A stretch of 45,647 nucleotides of DNA from a virus (IMGVR_UViG_3300046509_000002:1-45647); one strand, 5' to 3'. Counted from the first letter of the stretch, positions 1,122 to 45,647 are shown. Made by a program: numbers and translations. Notes: generated from the sequence alone by a model not told the origin.

Positions 1122-1564
1122 TTCAGAGCGACCTCACGCAGTGGCTGCGCAATCATGGCGCATGCGCCGAGTCCCTCACGTGGCTCGACGCACACGCGGA
1201 TCTCACCCCGCAGGAGATGTGGGAGTCGTGCCCACGGGGTGACTGGCTGGCGTGGGCCCTGGAGGCGGTGGGACTAGACGTGCCAGCCTCCGCGGGCCGG
1301 GCGTACGACGAGGCACGCGCCTCCGCGAGCCGGGCGTACGACGAGGCCGTCGCCCCCGCGCGTCGGGCGTACTACGAGGCCTGCGCCCCCGAGCGTCGGG
1401 CGTACTACGAGCTCTGCGACTCCGCGGGTCGGGCGTACGACGAGGCACGCGCCTCCGCGTACCGGTCGTACGGCGAGGCCATCTACTCCGCGCGCCAGGA
1501 GTACGCCGTAGCTATCAGGGCTGAGGTGTCGTTCGACGACGTACTGAAAGGATGTGGAGCATGA
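1118..1564 (+). CDS. Hendecad-repeat family protein (copy 3, 6 units)
   Basis: A 148-residue paralogue starting MIQSDLTQWL at the ATG overlapping the previous stop. It has six 11-residue units, then the cap. Its third and fourth units (RRAYYEACAPE, RRAYYELCDSA) and its last unit plus cap (YRSYGEAIYSA, RQEYAVAIRAEVSF) match the copy at 44413-44859, while the units between differ. That makes the two genes mosaics of one another, although they lie in different parts of the array as drawn. This is the last repeat gene before the regulator at 1561, with which it shares the ATGA junction. Confidence 0.87.
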   Translation: MIQSDLTQWLRNHGACAESLTWLDAHADLTPQEMWESCPRGDWLAWALEAVGLDVPASAGRAYDEARASASRAYDEAVAPARRAYYEACAPERRAYYELCDSAGRAYDEARASAYRSYGEAIYSARQEYAVAIRAEVSFDDVLKGCGA

Positions 1565-1773
1565 CTAAACTAGGCACGGCTTTCGCGCAGAATCTGAGAC
1601 GACTACGTGAGAAGGCAGGGATCTCTCAGGAAGAAGTAGCGAGGCAGGCACACCTCACGAACGGCTACGTGTCCATGCTAGAGCGTGGTGTGCGCGGGCC
1701 GTCGTTTGACGTGGTAGAGGTGTTGGCCAAGGTGTTCGATGTCAACCCGCTGAACATGCTAAAGGAGAAGTGA
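1561..1773 (+). CDS. XRE-family helix-turn-helix transcriptional regulator
   Basis: A 70-residue, single-domain DNA-binding protein of the HTH_3/Cro-C1 type. It has the full five-helix pattern: FAQNLRRLREKAGISQEEVA (helices 1-2), then LTNGYVSMLERGVRGPS (recognition helix and turn) and a final VVEVLAKVFDVNP helix. It probably represses or activates phage promoters; palindromes at 38534-38607, 40681-40719 and 39143-39247 are candidate operators, but no link is shown. Its ATG at 1561 sits on exactly the junction that joins the repeat genes, so it is translated at the end of that array. An upstream in-frame ATG at 1552 overlaps the ribosome site and is unlikely. Confidence 0.93.
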   Translation: MTKLGTAFAQNLRRLREKAGISQEEVARQAHLTNGYVSMLERGVRGPSFDVVEVLAKVFDVNPLNMLKEK

Positions 1774-39142: not shown

Positions 39143-39247
39143 TGCCAAAATGTCAATGGCATGAGTGCCAAAATGTCAATGGCATGAGTGCCAAAATGTC
39201 AACGGCAGAGTTTTGACATTTTGGCAAAGAACTTTGACATTTTGGCA
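39143..39247. repeat. Five-copy TGCCAAAATGTCAA iteron cluster
   Basis: Three identical 14-mers in one orientation start at 39143, 39166 and 39189, exactly 23 bases apart with conserved spacers. Two identical 14-mers in the opposite orientation (TTGACATTTTGGCA) lie at 39213-39226 and 39234-39247. All five are perfect. The spacing of about two helical turns suggests cooperative binding of one protein, as at replication origins or at switch regions between divergent promoters. The first three bases of the inverted form extend into TTGACA, a -35 match. Confidence 0.85.
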
Positions 39248-39851
39248 AAAGTCAGCGAAACACCCAAAACCCAACCCACTGTTACACCAGCAACATCGGC
39301 AGCTTGCGCCCCTTTTCGGGGAGGATGTAGCAGCGGTTACACTGGCGGTTTGGTCTGTAACCTATGAATTATCCTAAAGTATTACAGTAGACTTATTCTT
39401 CTTTAAAAGAAGAAGAAGAAGAAGAAGAGAGTAGAGAATATATAGGGGAAAGTTTGAGAGCTCGTTCTCTGTAACATTTTCGTCTAAGATCCTGAGCTCA
39501 TTGACAAAAAGTCCGTTACAGCAGCTTTTTGGCGTGTGTGCTTACGGTTAGTATTAAACCTAGGAATGCCGGGTAGTTAAGTGCACTTTTTACCAAAGAA
39601 AGAAAACCAGCTTAGGGCCTATTTTACGCCGGTGAATACAATTCACACTGAACAAGTGAAGAGTAGTTTGGATGTAACCTACGGCCGTCACAGTGGATTC
39701 CCAGCGCATGGTAACACAATAAGTATCAAACCTAGGAATGTCGGTAGGTTAGGTTACCCCAATTCCACCTGAACTAAAGTTCAGCTACTCGCGAGGCGTG
39801 TCCAAGCCCGGGAGGGTTGACGCCCCAAAAAGAAATAGGGTAACCTAGCGC
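39248..39851. promoter_or_regulatory. AT-rich non-coding control region, possible origin
   Basis: About 600 bases without a credible gene and clearly richer in A/T than the rest. It contains a purine tract of GAA triplets next to a 19-base inverted repeat (TTCTTCTTTAAAAGAAGAA near 39396), an A/T stretch GAATATATAGG, at least nine GTTAC/GTAAC sites, and a direct repeat. TTGACG (39817) and TAACCT (39841) are spaced 18 bases apart just before the ATG at 39852 and would give a very short leader. Together with the iterons it looks like an origin and/or divergent promoter region. Confidence 0.6.
39551..39750. repeat. Imperfect direct repeat around AAACCTAGGAATG
   Basis: GTATTAAACCTAGGAATG (39551-39568) recurs as GTATCAAACCTAGGAATG (39723-39740), followed in both by similar GCCGG/GTCGG and TAGTTA/TAGGTTA. 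The 172-base period and the location in the control region suggest a duplicated binding site. Confidence 0.75.
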
Positions 39852-40277
39852 ATGCTCAAAAAACTAGAACACGGGGTCGCAGAGGTGTCCGCAGGGTCTG
39901 AGTCCGACCAGGCGACAGTCTTGCTGGACCTGGCTGACGCCTCCCGCTTGGTCTCGGCGGGCATGAAGATCGGCCTAACTTGGAGTCATGGTAAACGTTA
40001 CCCCTACACGGGAGGGGTACGCACCCCCCGCGTTTCGCTCGCACAGTTTATCCTGGGTGAAGGTCGGCGCGCGCAATACCTGGACGGGAATCCCCTTAAT
40101 TGCACCAGGGCTAACCTGTTAGTGAAGTCAGTCAGTGCCAAAGTGTGTTGTCACGAGCAGGAACGTGACGCTATCGCAGCCTGCTACGACGACGCCCTGG
40201 CGAAGATCGAAGACCTTCGTGCTCAGTTGCGCGCGAAGCGTTCAGTCATCCGGCAAATGCAGGATGACGCTGCGTGA
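39852..40277 (+). CDS. HNH-like remnant with C-terminal coiled coil
   Basis: A 141-residue protein. YPYTGGVRTPRVSLAQFILG and AQYLDGNPLNCTRANLLV follow the strand-helix pattern of phage HNH/AP2-type endonucleases (D78-G79-N80, then N88-L89), but the catalytic His expected just before is replaced by Tyr-Leu. The C-terminal 40 residues form a charged helix (LAKIEDLRAQLRAKR). It may be a DNA-binding protein derived from a homing nuclease. It is the first gene of the rightward domain, coupled to the next by GTGA. Confidence 0.65.
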   Translation: MLKKLEHGVAEVSAGSESDQATVLLDLADASRLVSAGMKIGLTWSHGKRYPYTGGVRTPRVSLAQFILGEGRRAQYLDGNPLNCTRANLLVKSVSAKVCCHEQERDAIAACYDDALAKIEDLRAQLRAKRSVIRQMQDDAA

Positions 40278-40708
40278 GGGCTAAGCGAAAGGCGCGAGCC
40301 AGGCTAGGCCCCCGCCCTGAGACGCGCCTTACCCAGGAAAACGTAGACAGCGCGCTGGACAGGCACACGGCGTGGTTGCGGGGTGACCCTGCAGGCGTGC
40401 GGCTGAACTTTGACTCGTGTGACCTGATAGGCTTTGACCTGCGCAACCGCGACCTGCGAGGGATTAAGATGCGCCAGGCCTACGTCCACCGAGTGGACCT
40501 CTCAGGATCTGACATGTCTAGCTCGGACCTGAGTGGGTCGCTGATAAGTGATTCGGCCCTGGCCGCTACGAGCCTTGCGGGGGCAGACCTGAGGCACACC
40601 AGGTTCATCCGCTCCCCGTTGCATGCCACGAACGTAGACGGCGTCGTGTGGACGACGGCCGGCCTGACCCGCGCAAAACTGCGTAGATCTTTACGCGGAA
40701 GTGCGTAG
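40274..40708 (+). CDS. Pentapeptide-repeat protein
   Basis: A 144-residue protein starting at GTG 40274. Residues about 48-115 show the A(D/N)LXX pattern: FDSCDLIGFDLRNRDLRGIK, VDLSGSDMSSSDLSGSLIS, ATSLAGADLRHTRF. This gives a square right-handed beta helix that can mimic DNA; some members bind gyrase. The first 45 residues are basic and helical. Its last codons overlap a pair of palindromic sites. Early expression from the control region would fit a host-takeover role, which is inferred. Confidence 0.88.
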   Translation: MRAKRKARARLGPRPETRLTQENVDSALDRHTAWLRGDPAGVRLNFDSCDLIGFDLRNRDLRGIKMRQAYVHRVDLSGSDMSSSDLSGSLISDSALAATSLAGADLRHTRFIRSPLHATNVDGVVWTTAGLTRAKLRRSLRGSA

Positions 40709-40982: not shown

Positions 40983-41615
40983 ATGAGCGGCCTCACGAAG
41001 TGGCTGCGCAATCATGGCGCATGCGCCGAGTCCCTCACGTGGCTCGACGCACACGCGGATCTCACCCCGCAGGAGATGTGGGAGTCGTGCCCACGGGGTG
41101 ACTGGCTGGCGTGGGCCCTGGAGGCGGTGGGACTAGACGTGCCAGCCTCCGCGTGCCGGGCGTACGACGAGGCCTGCGCCTCCGCGCGCCGGGCGTACTA
41201 CGAGGTTTGCGCCTCCGCGCGCCGGGCGTACTACGAGGTTTGCGACTCCGCGGGCCGGGCGTACTACGAGGTTTGCGCCTCCGCGAGCCGGGCGTACGAC
41301 GAGGCACGCGCCGCTGCGGACCGGGCGTACGACGAGGCACGCGCCGCTGCGGGCCAGGAGTACGACGAGGCACGCGCCTCCGCGGACCGGGCGTACGACG
41401 AGGCACGCGCCTCCGCGCGCCGGGCGTACGACAAGGTCTGCGCCTCCGCGCGCCGGGCGTACGACGAGGCACGCGCCTCCGCGCGCCGGGCGTACGACAA
41501 GGTCTGCGCCCCCGCGCGCCAGGAGTACGACGAGGCACGCGCCTCCGCACGCCAGGCGTTCGCCGTAGCTATCAGGGCTAAGGTGTCGTTCGCGGATGTG
41601 ATGGCTGCACTGTAG
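40983..41615 (+). CDS. Hendecad-repeat family protein (copy 4, 12 units, longest)
   Basis: A 210-residue member with the longest repeat tract, twelve 11-residue units. It begins MSGLTKWLRNHGACAESL and differs from array members in its C-terminus: RQAFAVAIRAKVSFADVMAAL with a UAG stop rather than the KGCGA-TGA ending. Several units carry YYEVC or YDKVC in place of YDEAC. GGAGGTG sits eight bases before the ATG. It is a separate cistron, not part of an ATGA chain; the stop is followed by a tRNA-like element. Confidence 0.9.
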   Translation: MSGLTKWLRNHGACAESLTWLDAHADLTPQEMWESCPRGDWLAWALEAVGLDVPASACRAYDEACASARRAYYEVCASARRAYYEVCDSAGRAYYEVCASASRAYDEARAAADRAYDEARAAAGQEYDEARASADRAYDEARASARRAYDKVCASARRAYDEARASARRAYDKVCAPARQEYDEARASARQAFAVAIRAKVSFADVMAAL

Positions 41616-41616
41616 T

Positions 41617-41657
41617 CCCAGTCTTGGACCTAGCTGGGTTCGATTCCCAGCGCTGGG
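41617..41657 (+). ncRNA. tRNA acceptor/T-arm minihelix-like element
   Basis: One base after a UAG stop: CCCAGT, C, a 10-base linker (TTGGACCTAG), a T-arm (CTGGG, loop TTCGATT, CCCAG), C, and GCTGGG pairing with the first strand (one G-T pair). The next bases are GTTT, so there is no CCA. Other pairings are possible because CCCAG and CTGGG each occur twice, including the palindrome CCCAGCGCTGGG, which with GTTT could act as a weak terminator. The nested pairing is favoured because the element at 2355 keeps it with other bases. Confidence 0.5.
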
Positions 41658-41707
41658 GTTTACGTTGGTTCACTAGGAGGGGACACGGAGTCCCCAGGAG
41701 AACGAAG

Positions 41708-42013
41708 ATGACGATCAGTACCCGCATCGCCCCCACCCACTACATCGTCCAGACCGCCGCAGCGCCCATGCCGTCGAGCTGCTGGGGCGTCTACCGCCGC
41801 GTGGCAGTCCTCGAGGTCGAGGCCGGGGTGACCCGCGCCAGCATGATCTCGACGCACGCCCGTGGCGTCCGCCGCGTCGTCCAGACCTGGGAGCGGCTCA
41901 ACGTCGGCCACACCGCTCGCTGCGCCTACGCGCGGGCCCTAGCAGCCGCGGAGAGGTTGGCCGCCGAGTACAACGGCACCAGCCAGATCGCGCACTCCAC
42001 GCCTCACGAGTAG
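41708..42013 (+). CDS. Small hypothetical protein between repeat genes
   Basis: A 101-residue protein beginning MTISTRIAPTHYIVQTAAAP with a helical, Ala/Arg-rich C-terminal half (CAYARALAAAERLAAEYNG). AGGAGAACGAAG leads to the ATG. A small hairpin (GGGGAC-ACGGA-GTCCCC, 41679-41695) sits just before the ribosome site and could control its access. The next repeat gene follows after a 30-base leader. Family unknown. Confidence 0.7.
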   Translation: MTISTRIAPTHYIVQTAAAPMPSSCWGVYRRVAVLEVEAGVTRASMISTHARGVRRVVQTWERLNVGHTARCAYARALAAAERLAAEYNGTSQIAHSTPHE

Positions 42014-42043
42014 ATGACTCAGGGGGAGCCGAAAGGACACAAA

Positions 42044-42649
42044 ATGACTCAGGGCGACCTCACGAAGTGGCTGCGCAATCATGGCGCATGCGCCGAGTCC
42101 CTCACGTGGCTCGACGCACACGCGGATCTCACCCCGCAGGAGATGTGGGAGTCGTGCCCACGGGGTGACTGGCTGGCGTGGGCCCTGAAAGAGGCGGAGC
42201 TATACGTGCCAGCCTCCGCGCGCCGGGCGTACGACGAGGCATGCGCCTCCGCGCGCCGGGCGTACGACGAGGCACGCGCCTCCGCGCGCCGGGCGTACTA
42301 CGAGGTTTGCGACTCCGCGGGCCGGGCGCTCGACGAGGCCTGCGCCTCCGCGAGCCGGGCGTACGACGAGGCACGCGCCGCTGCGGACCGGGCGTACGAC
42401 GAGGCACGCGCCGCTGCGCGCCAGGAGTACGACGAGGCACGCGCCTCCGCGGACCGGGCGTACGACGAGGCACGCGCCTCCGCGGACCGGGCGTACGACA
42501 AGGTCTGCGCCCCCGCGCGCCAGGAGTACGACGAGGCACGCGCCTCCGCGGACCGGGCGTACGACAAGGTCTGCGCCCCCGCACGCCAGGCGTTCGCCGT
42601 AGCTATCAGGGCTAAGGTGTCGTTCGCGGATGTGATGGCTGCACTGTAG
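42044..42649 (+). CDS. Hendecad-repeat family protein (copy 5, 11 units)
   Basis: A 201-residue member, sister to the copy at 40983: same ending AFAVAIRAKVSFADVMAAL and UAG stop. Its N-terminal domain differs from the consensus at WALKEAELYVPA (other copies WALEAVGLDVPA). Units include two identical RAYDKVCAPA. The ATG at 42044 is preceded by GAAAGGACACAAA, a leader shared with the copy at 43329; an in-frame ATG at 42014 lies directly after the previous stop and would add ten residues. Confidence 0.88.
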   Translation: MTQGDLTKWLRNHGACAESLTWLDAHADLTPQEMWESCPRGDWLAWALKEAELYVPASARRAYDEACASARRAYDEARASARRAYYEVCDSAGRALDEACASASRAYDEARAAADRAYDEARAAARQEYDEARASADRAYDEARASADRAYDKVCAPARQEYDEARASADRAYDKVCAPARQAFAVAIRAKVSFADVMAAL

Positions 42650-42650
42650 T

Positions 42651-42691
42651 CCCAGTCTTGGACCTAGCTGGGTTCGATTCCCAGCGCTGGG
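42651..42691 (+). ncRNA. tRNA acceptor/T-arm minihelix-like element, second copy
   Basis: Identical in sequence to the element at 41617, again one base after the UAG stop of a repeat gene. The identity continues through GTTTACGTTGGTTCACTAGGAG into the ribosome site of the next gene, so gene end, element and leader were duplicated as a unit. Confidence 0.5.
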
Positions 42692-42719
42692 GTTTACGTT
42701 GGTTCACTAGGAGAGAGAC

Positions 42720-43031
42720 ATGGCGAGAATCAAAGCCTTCCAGATTTACGACTGCGGCGTAGACCATGAGCAGTATTTCCCGGGGCGAGGTGTGGCAGGG
42801 TCGGAGTGGACCGGTGTCGTGGTCGGCGTGGGTGACTCGGCCAATGAAGCGGGCGACGACGCTCTAGAGTATCTGGCTCAAGCGGAAGACGTAGATGGCG
42901 TCCCGCCCGTGTTGGAGAACGAGGCGAAAGAGCTCTCCGCTAAGATGGATGCGCACTCAGAGTGCATGCACTCTGAGGACAAAGAAGAGGCGTGTCCCAT
43001 GCATCACTATGTGGCGATTTACTGGAGGTAA
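42720..43031 (+). CDS. Small phage hypothetical protein (FQIYDCGVDHEQYF-type)
   Basis: A 103-residue acidic protein. FQIYDCGVDHEQYFPGRG near the start and GVGDSANEAGDDALEYLAQ are shared, as I recall, with small proteins of unknown function in many phages and plasmids. The C-terminal part has Cys/His (HSECMHSEDK, CPMHHY) that might bind metal. AGGAGAGA precedes the ATG. The gene follows the duplicated leader. Confidence 0.75.
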   Translation: MARIKAFQIYDCGVDHEQYFPGRGVAGSEWTGVVVGVGDSANEAGDDALEYLAQAEDVDGVPPVLENEAKELSAKMDAHSECMHSEDKEEACPMHHYVAIYWR

Positions 43032-43034
43032 CAT

Positions 43035-43277
43035 ATGAGGTCTAGACTCCTCGCCGCAGGGCTCTGCCTGGCTGCAGCATATGTGGGCGCTCGCCTGGGG
43101 TACGAGCAGGCCGAGCGGGAAGAAGACCAGCGTGCCAGGCGCGAGGCGCAAACGGAATGCATGGAGGATGCGGGAATCTGGACGGACGACCGGGGCTGCG
43201 TGGAAGACCGAGGGTGCTCCACTGACCGCGGGTGCTCTGAGGGCCGTGCCATCACTGGTTACTACGAGGATAGGTGA
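43035..43277 (+). CDS. Small exported or membrane-anchored Cys-repeat protein
   Basis: An 80-residue protein. LLAAGLCLAAAYVGARLG is a hydrophobic N-terminal segment (signal or single membrane helix), followed by a charged helix and then three DRGC/EDRGC repeats (DDRGCVEDRGCSTDRGC). The Cys could form disulfides outside the cytoplasm. GGAGG lies upstream of the ATG at 43035, three bases after the previous stop. It may act on the host envelope, for example in superinfection exclusion, but that is only suggested by topology. Confidence 0.72.
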   Translation: MRSRLLAAGLCLAAAYVGARLGYEQAEREEDQRARREAQTECMEDAGIWTDDRGCVEDRGCSTDRGCSEGRAITGYYEDR

Positions 43278-43281
43278 GAAG

Positions 43282-43332
43282 ATGAAATGTTTCACTGTCG
43301 TAGGCTACACCGCGCGAAAGGACACAAAATGA
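43282..43332 (+). CDS. Possible 16-residue leader peptide
   Basis: An ATG at 43282 opens MKCFTVVGYTARKDTK and stops at TGA 43330-43332, overlapping the next start (ATGA at 43329), exactly as the repeat genes overlap one another. GGTGAGAAG stands before it. It may couple translation of the next gene, or be fortuitous. Confidence 0.35.
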   Translation: MKCFTVVGYTARKDTK

Positions 43333-43940
43333 CTCAGAGCGCCCTCACGCAGTGGCTGCGCAATCATGGCGCATGCGCCGAGTCCCTCACGTGGCTCAGA
43401 GTGCATGCGGATCTCACCCCGCAGGAGCTGTGGGAGTCGTGCCCACGGGGTGACTGGCTGGCGTGGGCCCTGGAAGAGGTGGGGCTAGACGTGCCAGCCC
43501 CCGCGGGCCGGGCGTACGAGGAGGCCTGCGCCTCCGCGGACCGGGTGTACGACGAGGCACGCGCCTCCGCGTACCGGGCGTACGAGGAGGCCTGCGCCTC
43601 CGCGCTCCGGGCGTTCGACGAGGCACGCGCCTCCGCGCACCGGGCGTACGGCGAGGCACGCGCCTCCGCGCGCCGGGTGTACGACGAGGCACGCGCCTCC
43701 GCGCGCCGGGCGTACAACGAGGCTCTCAACTCCGCGCGCCGGGCGTACAGCGAGGCTCTCAACTCCGCGCGCCGGGCGTACAGCGAGGCTCTCAACTCCG
43801 CGCGCCGGGCGTACTACAAGGCCTGCGCCCCCGCGCTCCGGGCGTTCGATGAGGCCTGCGACTCCGCGCGCCGGGAGCTTGCCGTAGCTATCAGGGCTAA
43901 GGTGTCGTTCGACGACGTGCTGAAAGGATGTGGAGCATGA
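43329..43940 (+). CDS. Hendecad-repeat family protein (copy 6, 11 units)
   Basis: A 203-residue member and the first gene of the long ATGA-coupled chain. Its N-terminal domain has TWLRVHADLTPQEL and WALEEVGLDVPAPA. Three successive units are NEALNSA/SEALNSA types not seen in other copies; two are identical at DNA level, pointing to recent unit duplication. The end RRELAVAIRAK followed by FDDVLKGCGA is shared with the next copy. Confidence 0.9.
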   Translation: MTQSALTQWLRNHGACAESLTWLRVHADLTPQELWESCPRGDWLAWALEEVGLDVPAPAGRAYEEACASADRVYDEARASAYRAYEEACASALRAFDEARASAHRAYGEARASARRVYDEARASARRAYNEALNSARRAYSEALNSARRAYSEALNSARRAYYKACAPALRAFDEACDSARRELAVAIRAKVSFDDVLKGCGA

Positions 43941-44416
43941 TTCAGAGCGACCTCACGCAGTGGCTGCGCAATCATGGCGCATGCGTCGAGTCCCTCACGT
44001 GGCTCGACGCACACGCGGATCTCACCCCACAGGAGCTGTGGGAGTCGTGCCCACGGGGTGACTGGCTGGCGTGGGCCCTGGAGGCGGCGGGACTAGACGT
44101 GCCAGCCTCCGCGTACCGGGCGCTCGACGAGGTCTGCGGTGCCGCGGACCGGGCGCTCTACGAGGCCTGCGCCTCCGCGCGCCGGGCGTACTACGAGGTT
44201 TGCGACTCCGCGGGCCGGGCGCTCGACGAGGCCTGCGCCTCCGCGAGCCGGGCGCTCGACGAGGCCTGCGCCTCCGCGAGCCGGGCGTACGACGAGGCAC
44301 GCGCCGCTGCGGACCGGGCGTACGACGAGGCCATCTACTCCGCGCGCCGGGAGCTTGCCGTAGCTATCAGGGCTAAGGTGTCGTTCGACGACGTGCTGAA
44401 AGGATGTGGAGCATGA
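43937..44416 (+). CDS. Hendecad-repeat family protein (copy 7, 7 units)
   Basis: A 159-residue member. It opens its repeats with YRALDEVCGAA, as do the copies at 100 and 44856, but then switches to RRAYYEVCDSA and GRALDEACASA, seen in the copy at 42044. It thus looks like a recombinant between two lineages. Start and stop both use the ATGA junction with GAAAGGATGTGGAGC before it. Confidence 0.9.
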   Translation: MIQSDLTQWLRNHGACVESLTWLDAHADLTPQELWESCPRGDWLAWALEAAGLDVPASAYRALDEVCGAADRALYEACASARRAYYEVCDSAGRALDEACASASRALDEACASASRAYDEARAAADRAYDEAIYSARRELAVAIRAKVSFDDVLKGCGA

Positions 44417-44859
44417 TTCAGAGCGACCTCACGCAGTGGCTGCGCAATCATGGCGCATGCGCCGAGTCCCTCACGTGGCTCGACGCACACGCGGATCTCA
44501 CCCCGCAGGAGCTGTGGGAGTCGTGCCCACGGGGGGACTGGCTGGCGTGGGCCCTGGAGGCGGTGGGACTAGACGTGCCAGCCTCCGCGCTCCGGGCGTA
44601 CTACGAGGCCTGCGCCTCCGCGGACCGGGCGCTCGACGAGGCCGTCGCCCCCGCGCGTCGGGCGTACTACGAGGCCTGCGCCCCCGAGCGTCGGGCGTAC
44701 TACGAGCTCTGCGACTCCGCGGGTCGGGCGTACTACAAGGCCTGCGCCCCCGCGTACCGGTCGTACGGCGAGGCCATCTACTCCGCGCGCCAGGAGTACG
44801 CCGTAGCTATCAGGGCTGAGGTGTCGTTCGCGGATGTGCTGAAAGGATGTGGAGCATGA
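44413..44859 (+). CDS. Hendecad-repeat family protein (copy 8, 6 units)
   Basis: A 148-residue member closely related to the copy at 1118: units RRAYYEACAPE and RRAYYELCDSA and the end YRSYGEAIYSARQEYAVAIR with RAEVSF are common to both. The first two and the fifth units differ. The Glu in RAEVSF, where other copies have Lys, marks this pair. Flanked by coupled family members on both sides. Confidence 0.9.
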   Translation: MIQSDLTQWLRNHGACAESLTWLDAHADLTPQELWESCPRGDWLAWALEAVGLDVPASALRAYYEACASADRALDEAVAPARRAYYEACAPERRAYYELCDSAGRAYYKACAPAYRSYGEAIYSARQEYAVAIRAEVSFADVLKGCGA

Positions 44860-45371
44860 TGGCCCAGAGCGACCTCACGAAGTGGCTACGCAACCACGGC
44901 GCGTGCTACGCGTCTCTCACGTGGCTCAAGGCACACTCAGACCTCACCCCACAGGAGCTGTGGGAGTCGTGCCCACGGGGTGACTGGCTGGCGTGGGCCC
45001 TGGAGGCGGCGGGACTAGACGTGCCAGCCTCCGCGTACCGGGCGCTCGACGAGGTCTGCGGTGCCGCGGACCGGGCGTACGACGAGGCCTGCGCCTCCGC
45101 GGGCCGGGCGTACGGCGAGGCCTGCGCCTCCGCGGAGGCGACGTACGACGAGGCCTGCGCCTCCGCGTACTGGGCGTACGGCGAGGCACGCGCCTCCGCG
45201 CGCCGGGTGTACGACGAGGCACGCACCTCCGCGCGCCAGGAGTACGACGAGGCCTGCGCCTCCGCGGACCGGGCGTACGACGAGGCCTGCGCCCCCGCGC
45301 GCCGGGCGTACGCCGTAGCTATCAGGGCTAAGGTGTCGTTCGCGGATGTGCTGAAAGGATGTGGAGCATGA
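44856..45371 (+). CDS. Hendecad-repeat family protein (copy 9, 8 units)
   Basis: A 171-residue near-twin of the copy at 100: all eight units match in order, and the latter simply has two further RAYDEACAPAR units before the cap. The N-terminal domain, however, differs in several places (CYASLTWLKAHSDL here). So the repeat tract and the N-terminal domain have separate histories, probably through gene conversion. Confidence 0.9.
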   Translation: MMAQSDLTKWLRNHGACYASLTWLKAHSDLTPQELWESCPRGDWLAWALEAAGLDVPASAYRALDEVCGAADRAYDEACASAGRAYGEACASAEATYDEACASAYWAYGEARASARRVYDEARTSARQEYDEACASADRAYDEACAPARRAYAVAIRAKVSFADVLKGCGA

Positions 45372-45647
45372 TGGCCCAGAGCGACCTCACGAAGTGGCTG
45401 CGCAGTCACGGCGCGTGCTATGAGTCCCTCACGTGGCTCGACGCACACGCGGATCTCACCCCACAGGAGCTGTGGGAGTCGTGCCCACGGGGTGACTGGC
45501 TGGCGTGGGCCCTGGAGGCGGCGGGACTAGACGTGCCAGCCTCCGCGTACCGGGCGTACCGGGCGTACGACGAGGCCTGCGCCTCCGCGGGCCGGGCGTA
45601 CGGCGAGGCCTGCGCCTCCGCGGAGGCGACGTACGACGAGGCCTGCG
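45368..45647 (+). CDS. Hendecad-repeat family protein, 5' end only (copy 10)
   Basis: The gene is cut by the window end after 93 codons. The N-terminal domain equals that of the copies at 100 and 678. Its first unit reads YRAYRAYDEACASA, which has three extra residues (a nine-base insertion of TACCGGGCG). If the window is circular, the protein would continue at base 23 and end in the cap at 2-103. Confidence 0.85.
   Translation, partial: MMAQSDLTKWLRSHGACYESLTWLDAHADLTPQELWESCPRGDWLAWALEAAGLDVPASAYRAYRAYDEACASAGRAYGEACASAEATYDEAC

Follow-up and report, generated by a model that had tools for sequence, protein, structure and literature searches.

The window analysed here, the whole virus record IMGVR_UViG_3300046509_000002 at its full length of 45,647 bases, carries one tandem, partly coupled family of hendecad-repeat genes, which we tentatively read as an amplified and recombining array of accessory proteins that may serve in host takeover or counter-defence. 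The array stands at the start of the plus-strand block, which holds the replication genes (primase, ligase, DNA polymerase and helicase), and spans the junction of the record ends; the minus strand carries the late genes (terminase, portal, tail and a 2,289-residue protein), and the terminase shares about 42% identity with its counterpart in Xanthomonas citri phage CP2. The first-pass annotation had counted eleven loci at 40983-45647 and 1-1564, and the gene family is indeed present in both places, but the count falls to nine because the record ends overlap: the last 379 nt (45269-45647) align with the first 403 nt (1-403) with zero mismatches and one 24-nt gap, therefore the genome is taken to be circular or permuted, about 45.27 kb long, and to close through the array. 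The nine distinct copies, all on the plus strand, are A1 (40983-41615; 210 aa, 12 full units), A2 (42044-42649; 201 aa, 11 units), A3 (43329-43940; 203 aa, 11 units), A4 (43937-44416; 159 aa, 7 units), A5 (44413-44859; 148 aa, 6 units), A6 (44856-45371; 171 aa, 8 units), B1 (100-681; 193 aa, 10 units), B2 (678-1121; 147 aa, 6 units, two residues out of register) and B3 (1118-1564; 148 aa, 6 units). The 3' end of A6 is duplicated at the record start (2-103), and A7 (45368-45647), truncated by the record end, is the B1 locus in a version eight residues shorter. Together the nine copies take up 4,767 nt or 10.5% of the genome, in line with the earlier estimate of more than a tenth.

The exact number and order of the copies are uncertain because A6 and B1 have 370 identical nucleotides in common. 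The suspicion that the array might be an assembly artefact does not hold for the array in kind, because the DNA of the copies differs, purifying selection acts on the heads, and this virus has a second contig (99.98% identity across 12,392 nt) that reaches into A1 and ends within its repeats. Records of relatives such as L185-L187 likewise end inside the repeats of this gene.

The paralogues had also been described as coupled, which stands for the run A3-A4-A5-A6-B1-B2-B3, where stop and start overlap by ATGA, but not for A1, A2 and A3, which are separated by small unrelated ORFs. The ATGA overlaps from A3 onward share one upstream sequence, GAAAGGATGTGGAGC, and place the true start of most copies downstream of the first ATG. 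The coupled run is closed, again through an ATGA overlap, by an HTH_3 Cro/CI-like regulator (1561-1773, plus strand; PF01381, E 2e-15; PADLOC Control_protein, 3e-13) similar to the control proteins of restriction-modification systems. This regulator is adjoined by an ORF at 1775-2350 with about nine tandem AEPKK copies and no Pfam match. Identical 42-nt terminator-like elements follow A1 (41617-41658) and A2 (42651-42692) on the plus strand, each with a stem akin to the T-arm of tRNA, CTGGGTTCGATTCCCAG; an Rfam search of the window, these elements included, returned zero matches, and the element folds no better than its shuffled versions. Upstream of the array lies a pentapeptide-repeat protein (40274-40708; PF00805, E 1e-11), a type of protein also seen among the neighbours of one relative. 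The intergenic region from which the late and early blocks diverge has, at 39158-39250, tandem 23-nt repeats with TGCCAAAATGTCAA and two inverted copies TTGACATTTTGGCA that look like an operator or origin (iteron) region, and it also holds two similar sequences around AACCTAGGAATG(C/T)CGG at 39555-39600 and 39725-39760.

The protein architecture was largely borne out as it had been proposed. A constant head of about 54 residues is present in every full copy, followed by 6-12 units of 11 residues, for which the self-identity at lag 11 is 0.52-0.72 against 0.31 or less at lags not divisible by 11, and by a constant tail, AVAIRA[KE]VSF[AD]DV. The repeat lengths follow n x 11 + 7, with n = 6, 7, 8, 10, 11 and 12, B2 being the one exception with two residues fewer. 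The consensus of the unit is A-S-A-x-R-A-Y-D-E-A-C (positions 0-10), with the hydrophobic moment of an amphipathic helix (0.29-0.34 at 11/3). AlphaFold models of B3 and A1, built from 36 and 29 sequences respectively, are all-alpha (pLDDT 92.6 and pTM 0.79 for B3; pLDDT 92.1 and pTM 0.74 for A1), and both show four short head helices, then two long helices (57-88 and 96-136 in B3; 55-122 and 127-200 in A1), then a short tail helix. The long helices are interrupted about halfway along the repeats, and the sequence at the interruption is not the same in B3 and A1. The models suggest that the arms are antiparallel helical hairpins, with a length that scales with the number of units and with the tail brought back towards the head, the hairpin packing being judged from secondary structure and pTM. 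The straight rods envisaged by the first-pass annotation were thus not recovered, as both models split the repeats into two long helices. Foldseek returned nothing at E <= 0.001 for the A1 and B3 models against the PDB or for B3 against BFVD, and a PDB sequence search gave zero matches.

No structural or characterised homologue of the family was found by Foldseek or by profile searches, and the head, which might have belonged to a known enzyme or structural family, matches nothing in Pfam, NCBIfam or the solved structures. A tblastn search of the phage collection with the head gave a sole credible match, in Caudoviricetes sp. vir526 (35% identity, E 1e-5); a match in Escherichia virus TH16 (E 6) was discarded as chance because its reading frame is full of stops. 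A DNA pattern encoding W..C.RGDW[LM].W was found in at least 119 stretches of viral contigs and in only 37 stretches across bacterial and archaeal genomes from 84,980 species. A profile of 147 heads found by the pattern, with this virus left out, recovers all heads of the window (E 4e-14 to 4e-12; A1, 5e-14) among 34,918 ORFs, and in profile-profile comparison the window head aligns with the heads of the relatives at 98.4% (E 7e-15), the middle region of the relatives staying unaligned. The window proteins therefore belong to the RGDW-head family both by the motif GAC...W...W..C.RGDW[LM].W and by the profile from unrelated phages, and the IR-containing C-terminal tail after an Ala-rich helical region was recognised by eye and by alignment. 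Judged by sequence, the head defines an uncharacterised family that is present in more than 100 IMG/VR phages and nearly absent from isolates; a typical member searched against 50,697 phage records and a hendecad relative searched against isolate phages gave no family match. Since it occurs in more than 100 environmental phages, almost no isolate, and without a match in Pfam, NCBIfam or known structures, the family appears to be a common phage accessory protein that laboratory models lack. In most relatives the head leads into a middle region and then into Ala-rich repeats that show no 11-residue period, with a tail similar to that of the window proteins, and no convincing domain fusion to the head was observed.

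The distribution of the family is that of an accessory gene, because, of 15 virus records whose portal or primase is related, just one has it, the other contig of the same virus. Among 48 virus records with the family, some of them chosen for multiple matches, a single copy was counted in 37 and two to four in the other 11, four being the maximum. A 24.5 kb contig of a Chloroflexi assembly contains seven dispersed members together with a DNA methyltransferase-like ORF. The 138 genes beside the relatives are most often helicases, RecE/RecT/Erf proteins, exonucleases and integrases, each in two or three cases, and these neighbours include no recurrent toxin family and no recurrent defence or counter-defence partner. 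Three window copies searched with PADLOC gave zero matches to known anti-phage defence proteins.

Differential selection patterns were observed for the parts of the proteins across the nine copies. The heads (pS 0.124, pN 0.052, pN/pS 0.42) and the tails (pS 0.122, pN 0.042) are constrained, and the hendecad units have pS 0.110 and pN 0.226, a ratio of about 2 that codon bias and gene conversion may have raised, as these are paralogous units in very GC-rich DNA. Variation in the unit is greatest at positions 3, 10 and 7, with 2, 8 and 9 constrained, and a similar ranking recurs within proteins from eight of the relatives (Spearman 0.865, p 0.0006), where position 1 is variable too. Plotted as an 11/3 helical wheel, the unit has positions 10, 3 and 7 next to each other at 262-327 degrees, beside the tyrosine at 229, a contiguity that is not significant taken alone (permutation p 0.10-0.31). 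The variable recognition repertoire suggested earlier is thereby supported indirectly, through the position pattern of the repeat variation.

From the replication-side location, the accessory distribution, the amplification and the uneven variation, a role in host takeover or counter-defence is preferred; we infer that neither a part of the virion nor an immunity protein against toxins fits as well. The array would then be an amplified accessory family opening the replication-side block of a podovirus-like phage, presumably expressed early. Each protein would consist of the constant four-helix head, which may bind a shared partner or oligomerise, a hendecad arm predicted to fold back as an antiparallel hairpin, and the constant tail returning headward. 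Positions 10, 3 and 7 would form a variable stripe next to the tyrosine stripe, and with it the arm might face a target in the host, for which a host-takeover or defence protein is the likeliest candidate. Both the arm length and the sequence of the stripe would be altered by recombination among the near-identical 33-nt units and from one copy to another, so that the array would work as a recombining repertoire and as a dosage reservoir. In its strongest form, in which the hairpins would be recognition proteins, nine different binders directed at fast-changing host targets with the stripe reshuffled through the 33-nt units, the proposal is rather unlikely.

A serious rival, one to which we give a real if minor chance, is that all the copies do one job, as an early inhibitor or scaffold, with amplification boosting expression and the differences between the repeats nearly neutral. 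The coupled tandem copies and the conserved heads agree with such a dosage effect, and identical tracts of 370, 282 and 279 nt between copies indicate recent copying, but near neutrality would not lead one to expect variation this uneven over the unit positions and recurring in other phages. There is a small chance that the array is a by-product of recombination, in which GC-rich 33-nt repeats expand readily and persist with little benefit: adjacent units are identical (513, 546 and 579), the record end carries a length variant differing by 24 nt, and the GC content of the array is 70% against 63% for the genome. All nine copies are nevertheless open, with constrained heads, at the cost of a tenth of the genome.

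The name of the Pfam family PF21805, Imm5_like ("Imm-5 like putative immunity protein"), raises the alternative of immunity or decoy proteins against toxins of the host or of rival phages, for which the chance appears slight. In relatives with the same head, the Imm5_like region follows directly after it (residues 48-151 in L138) and covers the middle and the Ala-rich part, and L138 and L234 exceed the cut-off used, 25 bits, with 38.7 and 27.2 bits. The Imm-5-like head of the first-pass annotation is accordingly correct in that the head shares homology with the N-terminal domain preceding Imm5_like, but the Pfam model omits the head, and the modelled region is missing from the window proteins: the window record has no PF21805 match at E <= 10, and a search with the whole proteins gave none either. 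Imm5 itself was linked to toxins by comparative genomics (PMC3482391), and no literature naming PF21805 or "Imm5-like" was found, nor anything relevant on hendecads or gene accordions in phages. A polymorphic-toxin immunity protein would be expected to adjoin a toxin gene, but no toxin family recurs among the 138 neighbours of the relatives, and Pfam gave no toxin for those small ORFs near the array that were searched, which argues against the toxin-directed decoys proposed before. It is hardly probable that the proteins are structural parts or rulers, whether in the virion or in a replication compartment, with the arm setting distance in 11-residue steps: the strict register and a tape-measure profile weakly matched by the A1 repeats (phrog_1533, E 3e-6) speak for this, but the gene block lies opposite the late genes, any ruler would be cut to half its length by a hairpin, the register is broken in one copy, and the match, good in the A1 repeats alone, drops to E 0.09 in A6, with A5 and B3 not among the matches listed, so that composition is its likely cause.

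The window proteins can be compared with several known systems. Other whole-protein matches in Pfam, NCBIfam, PHROG and PADLOC (apolipoprotein, Kazal, tape measure) are likewise compositional only. Proteins of the apolipoprotein, LEA group 3 and synuclein types are built of eleven-residue amphipathic helices, and the window proteins resemble them in period and amphipathicity, with a weak apolipoprotein match (E 0.003-0.007); however, PF01442 reaches 16.6-17.8 bits against a cut-off of 90, no LEA family is among the matches listed, the head and tail are unrelated, and the arm is predicted to form two helices. The PF21805-bearing relatives follow the same overall plan, a head and an Ala-rich helical region with a tail behind it, and differ by the modelled region. 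The hypothetical protein DBA34988.1 of vir526 (phrog_18326) has a head homologous to those of the window, but it carries a middle region and Ala-rich repeats and is present as a single copy. As to the search for such proteins in related phages, hendecad-armed members do exist, as a minority of the family in unrelated phages (L181-L194 and L201). What this variant brings is a new repeat architecture in which the same unit positions reproducibly stay constant or vary, and arm length and positions 3, 7 and 10 are features that experiments could act on. Should the arms prove to be recognition surfaces, host targeting in phages would include a modular system of repeat proteins. The members in L181-L194 and L201, which have units such as AEYQRVTAPAL and RAYDEATAPAR, are about 30-50% identical to B3, differ in repeat composition and mostly occur as one copy per record, with three in L201, whereas they share with the window proteins the head, a variable number of 11-residue units, a tail with the IR...P motif and the same variable positions of the unit.
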